NCBI RefSeq assembly: GCF_003355155.1
Contig: NZ_CP031320.1
Coordinates: 5,819,367-5,883,366, forward strand
DNA length: 64,000 nucleotides
Reading direction: 5' to 3'
From: Streptomyces armeniacus
Lineage (GTDB): Bacteria > Actinomycetota > Actinomycetes > Streptomycetales > Streptomycetaceae
Every line of letters starts with the position of its first letter. Positions within the stretch are counted from its first letter, which is position 1. The position numbers were made by a program, and so were the translations under genes. Shown here piece after piece: positions 24,189 to 48,364 of this stretch. The notes under the pieces are model-generated. The model was not told the DNA's origin. It did no database searches and saw only the letters and a list, made by a program, of their open reading frames with translations.

Positions 24189-25277
24189 ATGCGTACCGCT
24201 CTCGTCATCGGCACCGGACTCATCGGCACCTCTGCCGCGCTCGCGCTCGCCGCCCGCGGCGTACGCGTCCACCTGCGCGACCACGACCCGGAGCGGGCCC
24301 GTACAGCCGCCGCGCTCGGCGCGGGCACCGACCGGGACCCGGAAGGGCGGGTCGACCTCGCGCTGGTGGCCGTGCCGCCCGCGCGGGTCGCCGAGGCCGT
24401 CCTGGAGGCGCAGCGGCAGGACGTGGCCCGCGGCTACCTCGACGTCGGCAGCGTCAAGGGCTCACTCCGCGGCGATCTGCGCGCGGGCGGCTGCGACCCG
24501 GCGTCGTACCTCGGTACGCACCCCATGGCCGGCAGTGAGAAGTCCGGGCCGCTCGCGGCGACCGCCGACCTGTTCGAGGGGCGGCCCTGGGTGCTCACGC
24601 CGACCACCGAGACGGACACCGAGGTGCTGAACCTCGCCCTGGAACTCGTGGCGCTCTGCCGCGCCGTCCCGGTGGTGATGGACGCGGACGCCCACGACCG
24701 CGCCGTCGCGCTCGTCTCGCACACCCCGCAGCTGCTGTCCAGCATGGTCGCGGCCCGGCTGGAGAAGGCCGACGAGACGGCCGTACGGCTGTGCGGCCAG
24801 GGCATCCGCGACGTCACGCGCATCGCCGCCTCCGACTCCGCGATGTGGCTGGACATCCTCGCCGCCAACCCCGGCCCGGTCGCCGACGTCCTCGAGGAGC
24901 TGGCGGCCGACCTGGAGGGCACCGTACAGGCGCTGCGCGGGCTGCAGTCCGCGGACGAGGAGAAGCACGGGAACAGCTCCCTCGCCCTCGCCAACGTGCT
25001 GACGCGCGGCCGGGAAGGCAGCGCGCGGGTCCCCGGCAAGCACGGCCAGGCACCGGCCACGTACGAGACGGTGGCCGTCCTGATCAGCGACCGCCCCGGC
25101 GAGCTGGCCCGCATCTTCGCGGACGCGGGCGCCGTCGGCGTCAACATCGAGGACGTCCGTATCGAGCACGCCACCGGCCAGCAGGCCGGGCACGTACAGC
25201 TGATGGTCGAGTCCGGCGCGGCCCAGTCGCTCGCCACGGCGCTGCGCGAGCGCGGGTGGGCACTGCGCACGCAGTGA
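24189..25277 (+). CDS. tyrA: Prephenate dehydrogenase with C-terminal ACT domain
   Basis: 362 residues. Rossmann motif VIGTGLIGTS at residues 6-15, catalytic stretch THPMAGSEKSGP, SHTPQLLSSMVA and RIAASDSAMWLDIL. An ACT domain (~residues 295-360: VAVLISDRPGELARIFADAG) suggests feedback by tyrosine. It is immediately downstream of aroH. Confidence 0.95.
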   Translation: MRTALVIGTGLIGTSAALALAARGVRVHLRDHDPERARTAAALGAGTDRDPEGRVDLALVAVPPARVAEAVLEAQRQDVARGYLDVGSVKGSLRGDLRAGGCDPASYLGTHPMAGSEKSGPLAATADLFEGRPWVLTPTTETDTEVLNLALELVALCRAVPVVMDADAHDRAVALVSHTPQLLSSMVAARLEKADETAVRLCGQGIRDVTRIAASDSAMWLDILAANPGPVADVLEELAADLEGTVQALRGLQSADEEKHGNSSLALANVLTRGREGSARVPGKHGQAPATYETVAVLISDRPGELARIFADAGAVGVNIEDVRIEHATGQQAGHVQLMVESGAAQSLATALRERGWALRTQ

Positions 25278-38103: not shown

Positions 38104-38547
38104 CTAGCTCTGGTTGAAGAAGCCGCCCTCGGTGCGGCGGTCCTCACCGTTCACGATCTTGTATTCGGCCGGCGTCAGCAGGAAGACCCGCGTGGCCACA
38201 CGGTCGATGGAACCGCGCAGGCCGAAGATCAGCCCTGCGCAGAAATCCACGACGCGCTTCGCGTCGTCCGAGTCCATCCCCGTGAGATTCACGATCACCG
38301 GGACCCCGTCGCGGAACAGTTCCCCGATTCCGCGTGCGTCCCGGAAACCGTCCGGGGTGACCGTCGCGATCCGGGCGCCCTGATCCTGGGCGGCCTCGGC
38401 CGTCACCCGGACCCGCGGGTCCGTCACCCACGGTTCGCGAGCGGCGTCTCCGGGCTCCGGTCCCTCGGCGTAGTCGTCGTCGTAGTAACGCATCTCGCTG
38501 TCGTCGACGAGGCCCAGCCAGGCACTCGCCTTGCGCACCGATCCCAT
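38104..38547 (-). CDS. sflA: SepF-like cell-division protein
   Basis: 147 residues. The SepF core ([75 protein letters not shown]) is complete. It lacks ftsZ-cluster neighbours, so it is likely the SepF-like SflA rather than SepF itself; in S. coelicolor, as I recall, sflA (SCO1749) has a comparable neighbourhood. Such proteins influence FtsZ and hyphal branching. AGGAGG lies just before the ATG at 38547. The N-terminus ([16 protein letters not shown]) is the membrane-associated part. Confidence 0.9.
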
Positions 38548-42880: not shown

Positions 42881-42943
42881 ATGGGTTCTGACCGTGTGGA
42901 AGGGGATGCCGTGGAGCCGCTGGCGTTGGGGGACCCGGTACGT
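42881..42943 (+). pseudogene. Start of a gene cut by the adapter join (possible Ser/Thr kinase)
   Basis: An open frame from ATG 42881 (GTG 42878 possible) reads MGSDRVEGDAVEPLALGDPV and then Arg, before the adapter sequence begins near 42945. The PLALGDPVR end resembles the segment before the glycine-rich loop of streptomycete Ser/Thr kinases (PL..DDP.RIGPYRLL). Only 21 residues are present, so this is tentative. The remainder must lie on another contig. Confidence 0.4.
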
Positions 42944-42944
42944 G

Positions 42945-43118
42945 TGGTCTCTTATCCCCATCTGACGCTGCCGACGAAGTGTTGGGTGTAGTCTCCTGTG
43001 GGCGCCGGATCCTTAAAAAATAAGATACAACAATTTGTTTGTTTGTTCAACGATCCGGCGCCTCCCTGGCTTTACGCCTACGCCTTGTGCGGCAGCGTGA
43101 GATGTTGATAAGAGCCAG
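42945..43118. other. Sequencing-adapter artefact: inverted Nextera P5 adapters (false join)
   Basis: 42945-43014 aligns base-for-base with the reverse complement of mosaic end, Read-1 stem, 8-base index and P5. By my alignment the mosaic end matches 15 of 19, the stem 14 of 14 (42964-42977), and P5 21 of 29. 43049-43118 aligns with the forward adapter: P5 19 of 29, index CTACGCCT (versus known i5 CTAAGCCT), stem 10 of 14, mosaic end 16 of 19. All segment lengths are exact (29+8+14+19). The 34 bases between are A/T-rich, as after adapter read-through. Not genomic. Confidence 0.9.
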
Positions 43119-43841
43119 GAACTCCGCGTGCAGCGCGCGGAGTTCGGGCCCGGGGTCGGTGCCGAGCCGGTCGGCCAGCGTGACCCGCACTTCCTCGTAC
43201 GCCGCCAGCGCCTCGGCCGTACGCCCGGCGTCGCGCAGCGCGCGCAGGTGCAGGGCGTGCAGGGGCTCGTCCAGCGGGTGCGCGGCGGCGAGTTCGCGCA
43301 GTGCGGGCAGCGCCGTCTCGGGGCGGCTCAGCGCGCAGTCCGCCGCCAGCCGGTCGCGGCGCGCGGCGAGGTGCCGGGCGCGGGCGCGTACGCCGGTGGC
43401 GCCGCCGCCGTCGGGGAGGTCCGCGAGCGCAGGCCCGCGCCAGAGCGCCAGCGCGTCGTCCAGCTGCCCGGCGGCCTTCTCCGCGTCGCCGTCCGCGAGC
43501 GCGCGGGCCCCGTCATCGGCCAGCCGCTCGAAGCGGAAGAGGTCGATGTCGTCCCGGTCGGCCACCAGCCGGTAGCCGCCGGCGCCCGAGGCCACGGCCT
43601 CCCGGCCGAGCGCCCGCCGCAGCCGCCCGACCAGGGCCTGGAGTGCGGCGACCTCCTCCGTGGGCGGGTCCTCGCCGGCCGCCCATACGGACCGCACCAG
43701 CGCCTCGGTGCTCACCGTGCTCCCGCCCGCCACCGCGAGCGCGGTCAGCAGGGCGCGCAGCCGCGCCCCGCCGAGCGGCACCGTGGTGCCGTCCGTGCGG
43801 ATTGCCTGCGTGGTCCCCAGAACGCAATAGCGGTAGCGCAC
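43047..43841 (-). CDS. AfsR/SARP-type regulator (winged helix + BTAD), 3' end replaced by adapter
   Basis: The frame has 264 residues, but only 43119-43841 is genomic. The N-terminal OmpR-like DNA-binding domain (VLGTTQAIRTDGTTVPLGGA, LRALLTALAVAGG, LQALVGRLRRALG) and the bacterial transcriptional activator domain (LFRFERLADDGARALADG, RDRLAADCALSRPETALPAL, EALAAYEEVRVTLADRLGTD) are intact to LRALHAEF. The last ~24 residues (LALINISRCRTRRRRKAREA and on) are translated adapter. Whether the real protein is a short SARP or a long AfsR-like one with NB-ARC and TPR is unknown. GTG 43841 fits the domain start. Confidence 0.85.
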   Translation of the reverse strand: MRYRYCVLGTTQAIRTDGTTVPLGGARLRALLTALAVAGGSTVSTEALVRSVWAAGEDPPTEEVAALQALVGRLRRALGREAVASGAGGYRLVADRDDIDLFRFERLADDGARALADGDAEKAAGQLDDALALWRGPALADLPDGGGATGVRARARHLAARRDRLAADCALSRPETALPALRELAAAHPLDEPLHALHLRALRDAGRTAEALAAYEEVRVTLADRLGTDPGPELRALHAEFLALINISRCRTRRRRKAREAPDR

Positions 43842-44729
43842 CTGTTCATACTGCCAGGTCACCCCGAGCGCCGAACGGCCGCACCGGGGGCTGCCGCGGC
43901 CGCGCCGCGGGTTATCCCGGCGGGAAAAAGGCCGCCCAAGGCAGCTGTTCCCGCGTGGTATATGCGGGAGTTCTTTTGCGCAGCCACGGCCGCTCCGCAC
44001 CGTGAATTGGTGACGCTTTCAATCAATCCCCGCCGCCACCCGGCGGAATCCGGACGTCCGGACGCACAAGCGGAACCTCCAGGCGAGAGCGCTAGGACCC
44101 CTTGTACGGGCCCCGCGCGGACCGTACGGCCGCCCGCACCCGCCCCGTTCCACGCCGGTCCGCGCACGCCCGCGCGACAATGCGGCCCGTACGCTGACGG
44201 ACACCTCCGCCCGAGTGACCGCCCATGTCAGCGGGGGTCGCCGCCAAGGCGCCGCGGCAATCCGGAGGAATGTTTCAGAAAGCGTCCGCGGCGGCTCGCG
44301 TCCGGCCGAGCCGCGACGCGTTCCTTTGCCGCCGCACCGGCGAAAAGTGGCCTGAAATCCTCAGCCCGCAGGCATCTCGGAGCCTGGTAAGGAAGCGCTC
44401 TCGTTCGTATAGTGGGTTTTGCCGGGAAGTATGCAACTCCCCCCACGTGTAGGTCTCGAGGCGCCTCGATCGACCGCTCGGCAACCTCGATCGACCTGCG
44501 GGCATCGACCGGCCCGGTTCGGCTGCGCGCCGCGCAGAGCTCTCTCGTTCTTCGCACTCGAAACGCGCAATTGCCATGCCCTCTGCCCATTCCGTACGGG
44601 ATGCGCGGAGGTGAACAGTCCCGCGGTTCACCGTGCGGGCGAAGCCTGCCCGGAAACCGGCACCCCCACGTGCGGCGCCACCGCACATTCCGTCCCCCGG
44701 CGCCGCTCACGACGCTCGAAAGGACAAAC
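43842..44729. other. Long intergenic region upstream of DUF4360 genes
   Basis: About 890 bp with no supported gene. Open frames on both strands lack codon bias and sites. G+C is lower than in coding regions around 43900-44050 and 44240-44460. It should contain promoters for the SARP gene and the DUF4360 pair, plus the direct repeats at 44464-44510. Confidence 0.5.
44464..44510. repeat. Direct repeats CCTCGATCGACC upstream of DUF4360 genes
   Basis: Two perfect 12-bp copies at 44464-44475 and 44485-44496 are 21 bp apart (two helical turns). A shorter ATCGACC recurs at 44504-44510. Each copy contains the palindrome TCGATCGA. The spacing suggests a regulator-binding array; SARP proteins bind direct repeats at 11- or 22-bp spacing, so a link to the neighbouring regulator is possible but unproven. 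Confidence 0.45.
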
Positions 44730-47659: not shown

Positions 47660-48364
47660 TCAGACGTCGGTGAGCCGTACCCCCGCGTGCGCGCGGTAGC
47701 GGCGGTTGACGGAGATCAGGTTGGCGACGAGCGACTCGACCTGGTGCGCGTTGCGCAGCCGCCCCGCGTAGACGCCGCGCATCCCGGGGATGCGGCCGGC
47801 CAGCGCCTGCACGATCTCGCAGTCGTCCCGCACCTCGCCGAGCACCATCACGTCGGTCTCGATCTCCTCGACGGCGGGGTCCGCGAGGAGGACGGCGGAG
47901 AGGTGGTGGAACGCGGCCGTGACACGGGAGTCGGGCAGGAGCGCGGCGGCCTGCTCGGCGGCGCTGCCCTCCTCCGGCTTCAGGGCGTAGGCGCCCTTCT
48001 TGTCGAAACCGAGCGGGTTCACGCAGTCGACGACCAGCTTGCCCGCCAGGTCGTCGCGGAGCGCCTCGAGCGTCTTGCCGTGGCCCTCCCAGGGAACGGC
48101 GATGATCACCACGTCGGAACGGCGCGCGCACTCGGCGTTCTCGGCGCCCTCGACGCCCTCGCCGAGTTCACCGGCGGCCTGCTGGGCGCGCTCGGCGGCG
48201 CGCGAGCCGATGATCACCCGCTGGCCCGCCCTGGCCAGCCGGTACGCGAGGCCGCGCCCCTGGTCGCCGGTGCCCCCGAGCACGCCTACGGTGAGCCCGG
48301 ACACGTCGGGGAGGTCCCAGGGGTCCTTCTTCGGAGCGGCCTTCGGTGCGGCAGGTGAGGTCAT
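47660..48364 (-). CDS. npdG: F420H2:NADP+ oxidoreductase (NADPH-dependent F420 reductase)
   Basis: 234 residues. It transfers hydride between NADPH and coenzyme F420. The Rossmann loop VGVLGGTGDQGRGLAYRLA (residues ~26-44), IIGSR, VVIIAVPWEGH, VVDCVNPLGF and the substrate-side SRVTAAFHHLSAVLL are typical of the Fno family. The first ~20 residues are a variable Ala/Lys/Pro stretch. Cytoplasmic. Confidence 0.93.
   Translation of the reverse strand: MTSPAAPKAAPKKDPWDLPDVSGLTVGVLGGTGDQGRGLAYRLARAGQRVIIGSRAAERAQQAAGELGEGVEGAENAECARRSDVVIIAVPWEGHGKTLEALRDDLAGKLVVDCVNPLGFDKKGAYALKPEEGSAAEQAAALLPDSRVTAAFHHLSAVLLADPAVEEIETDVMVLGEVRDDCEIVQALAGRIPGMRGVYAGRLRNAHQVESLVANLISVNRRYRAHAGVRLTDV

Follow-up and report, generated by a model that had tools for sequence, protein, structure and literature searches.

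Paired Nextera adapter arms at an apparent false join inside the one-contig chromosome record of Streptomyces armeniacus

At positions 42945-43118 of a 64,000-base stretch of the Streptomyces armeniacus genome (here, the window), an untrimmed Nextera adapter almost certainly joins two chromosome segments that are not neighbors; a gene to the right is interrupted by this join, as is probably another to the left. We put the probability of this reading at approximately 0.98. The window corresponds to G000:5819367-5883366, in which G000 is a one-contig record of 8,083,249 bases with a completeness of 100 and a gene content that appears to be that of a Streptomyces. A literature search returned nothing on this genome.

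Two adapter arms at the join

The query was the 70-base Nextera i5 adapter, composed of P5 (29 bases), the index (8 bases), the Read-1 stem (14 bases), and the mosaic end (19 bases), with 62 fixed bases in total. The mosaic-end sequence has no occurrence in the text of PMC8225968. The adapter was compared, ungapped, with every position on either strand of the window, and 200 shuffled adapters served as the null. The two best places lie head-to-head on opposite strands with 34 bases between them and match at 50 and 45 of the 62 bases, while the third-best place scored 33 and the shuffled adapters reached 34 at most over the whole window. The site is laid out as follows.

42945..43014, minus strand: left Nextera arm, 50/62 against a shuffled maximum of 34
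Parts of the left arm, minus strand: mosaic end 42945-42963, Read-1 stem 42964-42977, index 42978-42985, P5 42986-43014
43015..43048, no strand: A/T-rich spacer of 34 bases, read-through past P5 from both arms
43049..43118, plus strand: right Nextera arm, 45/62 against a shuffled maximum of 34
Parts of the right arm, plus strand: P5 43049-43077, index 43078-43085, Read-1 stem 43086-43099, mosaic end 43100-43118

In both arms, the mosaic end, the stem, the 8-base index, and P5 follow one another in order and without gaps, as is characteristic of a read-through artifact. The first-pass annotation had described the site as two ungapped 70-base Nextera halves in opposite orientation and had suggested adapter alignment as a check; that alignment gave a significant match. 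Its further details held as well: the stem at 42964-42977 matches at 14 of 14 bases, the A/T-rich spacer at 43015-43048 has the character of read-through past P5, and the exact 11-base palindrome at 43001-43011/43052-43062, which had been read as P5 against its complement, sits within the P5 arms. The forward index had been placed one base from a known i5, and the right-arm index CTACGCCT indeed matches i5 508 (CTAAGCCT) at 7 of 8 bases; the left-arm index CCAACACT matches 508 at 5 of 8 bases and ties with 516. The mosaic end matches at 15/19 in the left arm and 16/19 in the right arm. P5 by itself is weak (21/29 on the left and 19/29 on the right, the latter score being equaled by a chance place at 24591), and the P5 portions are persuasive through their position alone. 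Taken together, the imperfect match of both arms, a P5 near chance, and the index tie on the left are observations that count against the adapter reading.

A pattern search of the window that tolerated as many as three mismatches across mosaic end and stem gave no match because the two copies differ from the pattern at 4 and 7 positions. For the P7 adapter, the best score in the window (31/58) does not exceed chance, as 100 shuffles reached up to 34, and a 60-base piece of the join site had no match in a collection of genome contigs from which the window's own genome may have been omitted. Adjoining the right arm, at 43119-43145, is a 13-base inverted repeat with a 1-base loop, and hairpins such as this one may be places where short-read coverage failed.

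Recurrence of the adapter in the genome

A BLAST search of the genome with the index-508 adapter and E values up to 10 gave at least 43 matches, of which 41 have E values of 1.4e-4 or lower; the count is a minimum because 40 of 83 candidates were scored. An additional two-armed adapter site at L260:1548-1711 (G000:7857547-7857710; 26/33 and 24/33) is absent from the BLAST list, and the true number of sites is therefore higher. We fetched 39 stretches covering all 43 matches, including the window's own site, and counted as an arm any place with at least 24 of 33 matches on stem plus mosaic end. Based on this cut-off, arms are present in 38 of the 39 stretches, with 42 arms in total, and L028 (23 matches) was dropped.

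Among the 42 arms, identity to the adapter declines with distance from the insert, from 0.85 in the mosaic end and 0.88 in the stem to 0.74 in the index, 0.61 in the near half of P5, and 0.52 in the far half, and an A-rich tail follows P5, as expected for read-through. The spacer in the window has its counterpart in these tails: at least 6 A among the 12 bases past P5 were found in 25 of the 42 arms, compared with 0.4% of 20,000 random window stretches. Within the first 33 bases of the arms, T-to-C, A-to-C, and T-to-G changes are the most frequent errors.

Using the 16 i5 indices in the available part of the primer list in PMC8225968, which includes 508, we found that 508 is the sole best index for 34 of the 42 arms, the remainder being 4 ties and 4 arms that fit other indices best; the majority-consensus index CTAGGCCT is one letter from 508. 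A single library index thus recurs at many sites, and we infer that 508 was the index of the library. P7-type arms with at least 23/34 matches occur in 5 of the 39 stretches (L020, L023, L025, L036, and L054), and 3 of the 39 contain runs of N (L020, L036, and L045). The 14-base Read-1 stem has nine exact places in the genome, of which seven coincide with adapter matches and two with none.

Genes and gene order on either side

The features flanking the arms that are used below are the following; the marker and regulator names are presumptive.

42881..42944, plus strand: start of an open frame, MGSDRVEGDAVEPLALGDPVR, 21 residues in translation, running into the adapter
43119..43860, minus strand: N-terminal part of a regulator gene, truncated by the adapter; it matches residues 2-248 of a relative's 1101-residue protein
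38107-38547: SepF-like marker, left side
47663-48364: NpdG-like marker, right side

On the right, the truncated gene encodes a long regulator that we take to be of the SARP/BTAD type. The matching frame spans 1102-1307 codons from stop to stop in the stretches of eight of nine relatives, while the ninth (L124) gave no match. When the L117 protein was searched against the genome, its residues 2-248 aligned to the window and its residues 235-1100 to G000:5655080-5657713, a region 205 kb from the join, with 58% identity and one internal stop. Judged by eye, real similarity in the distant part begins at approximately residue 255-260, just beyond the end of the window copy. Because the genome also contains a full-length homologue of the regulator (G000:5246110-5249556; piecewise matches of 31-71%), identity alone is insufficient to assign the distant part, and we assign it to the gene at 43119-43860 mainly because of collinearity in relatives. 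There, in eight of nine stretches (L116-L123), the distant part (L131:7042-9684) is adjacent to the window part. In seven of those eight, collinearity with the right block of the window extends over all of L131:229-9684, the exception being L116, which has an inversion of the block's far part. The distant part ends at a second join, at L131 position ~9684 (G000 ~5657683), without a recognizable adapter; beside it lies a stretch that we take to resemble an rRNA-operon leader and an RNase J-like gene.

On the left, the frame at 42881-42944 resembles the start of a Ser/Thr kinase and is probably a kinase start cut off by the adapter. Hence, the claim in the first-pass annotation that coding sequence is interrupted on each side stands for the right flank, where the regulator gene is broken, and comes down on the left to a frame of 21 residues with a putative kinase likeness. 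Among 49 Pkinase matches in the genome, three with incomplete starts were looked at. One of these, at 7856850-7857524 on the minus strand, is without the first 23 Pfam positions and adjoins the two-armed adapter site mentioned above (arms at 7857547, 26/33, and 7857678, 24/33); this gene, 2.0 Mb away, is a plausible candidate for the missing part. Its block had no match in the relatives' stretches, and a 23-base fragment from the left flank has a single occurrence in the genome, with no overlapping copy of that end. A motif search of the loci around the protease in relatives (stretches from six relatives) gave no kinase, so that synteny did not point to a left partner, and this result counts against our reading. 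In those loci, the protease is followed by a gene that we presume to be DnaE-like. The DnaE-like gene is split in G000, with residues 159-1161 at 5894425-5897463 and residues 12-141 at 7635187-7635570, 1.7 Mb apart, which is probably the result of another false join. The larger piece is located 32 kb beyond the join on the right-hand side; the left block may therefore be close to its proper position, and the right block may have been wedged in.

Gene order across the join was compared with that in nine relatives picked from 40 for their low contig number. In the window, the SepF-like and NpdG-like markers are 9.6 kb apart on the same strand. In all nine relatives, they are separated by 547 kb (G005) to 2.66 Mb (G012), the spacing being 0.55-0.71 Mb in the eight other than G012, and they lie on opposite strands in eight of the nine. 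The SepF-like gene and the protease were found together in three of six relatives' stretches; in the other three, the protease alone was matched. The relatives are not close, at about 70-80% DNA identity, and some differences in order could therefore be real. As judged by comparison with relatives only, the two flanks are not contiguous in the real chromosome, and these sequence comparisons indicate that the join at 42945-43118 is false. The distance to the regulator remainder and the marker spacing thus bear out the artificial join that had been proposed, so that the earlier observation is confirmed and its interpretation supported.

These data also weigh on the alternatives. It is very unlikely that a scaffold gap between true neighbors was filled with adapter, with little real sequence lost. 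The runs of N at adapter stretches point to scaffolding and gap filling, and the piece of the DnaE-like gene 32 kb to the right would fit a left block that is roughly placed; however, the true neighbor of the right block is 205 kb away, and the markers are far apart in every relative compared and on opposite strands in nearly all of them, whereas here they share a strand. A real rearrangement or a Tn5-type insertion, in which the adapter likeness would be secondary, is more improbable still. The mosaic end derives from Tn5 and chromosomes in this group rearrange, and the deviating marker spacing in G012 is in line with the latter. However, the stem, index, and P5 are parts of sequencing libraries and not of transposons, the 34 bases between the arms leave no room for a gene-bearing element, and the same arms with one index occur at dozens of places. 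In the arms, the mosaic end (15 and 16 of 19) fits better than either the Tn5 outside ends, with 12 and 14 matches, or the inside ends, with 12 and 13. We rejected a Tn5/IS50 insertion, as natural outside or inside ends bounding genes were not found and the synthetic mosaic end fits better. A fortuitous resemblance between genomic sequence and the adapter, to which the near-chance P5 and the two exact stem places without an adapter match might point, is refuted by the shuffles, which stay far below the full-length scores, and by the recurrence, and has a negligible probability.

Origin of the fault, its reach, and known parallels

Under the reading of the site as an untrimmed adapter between non-neighboring segments, short Nextera inserts would have been read through from the mosaic end into the Read-1 stem, the i5 508 index, P5, and finally A-rich noise. 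Such error-rich read tails would have lengthened two contig ends or filled a scaffold gap, and we infer that the responsible assembler step was contig extension or gap filling. Two A/T-rich tails could then have fused, placing non-neighboring segments side by side and truncating the regulator gene on one side and probably a second gene on the other.

The segment at 42945-43118 is an assembly artifact of a known kind and without biological interest; less usual is its location inside a one-contig record. It is likely that the single-contig chromosome consists of short-read contigs glued together at several dozen adapter sites plus some adapter-free joins. If so, its gene order, its split genes, and any apparent rearrangements cannot be relied on along much of the chromosome. 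No meaning can be read into gene neighborhoods that span 42945-43118, where at least one gene has been falsely truncated. The record serves as a warning in that it looks complete, with one contig and a completeness of 100, yet the fault repeats at dozens of sites. The adapter sites need masking before this genome is used in comparisons of gene order, gene clusters, or regulators.

The closest parallel is the Illumina Nextera i5-508 adapter itself, with which both arms share the order and spacing of P5, index, stem, and mosaic end; the arms differ from it at 12 and 17 of the 62 fixed bases, as error-rich read tails do. An exact Nextera scan of the genome-contig collection gave matches in at least 120 stretches, and in 115 of the 120 stretches listed, every Nextera match was within 100 bases of a stretch end. 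Two stretches from Streptomyces contigs (L140, S. novaecaesareae NRRL B-1267, and L144, S. catenulae NRRL B-2342) carry an exact Nextera sequence 17 bases from the stretch end. Adapter contamination concentrated at contig ends has been described in microbial genome databases (PMC11536531), in a paper that nowhere uses the term Nextera. There too, untrimmed adapter was carried into assemblies, but the available passages place it at contig ends, whereas here it sits within a one-contig record, flanked by segments that were wrongly joined.
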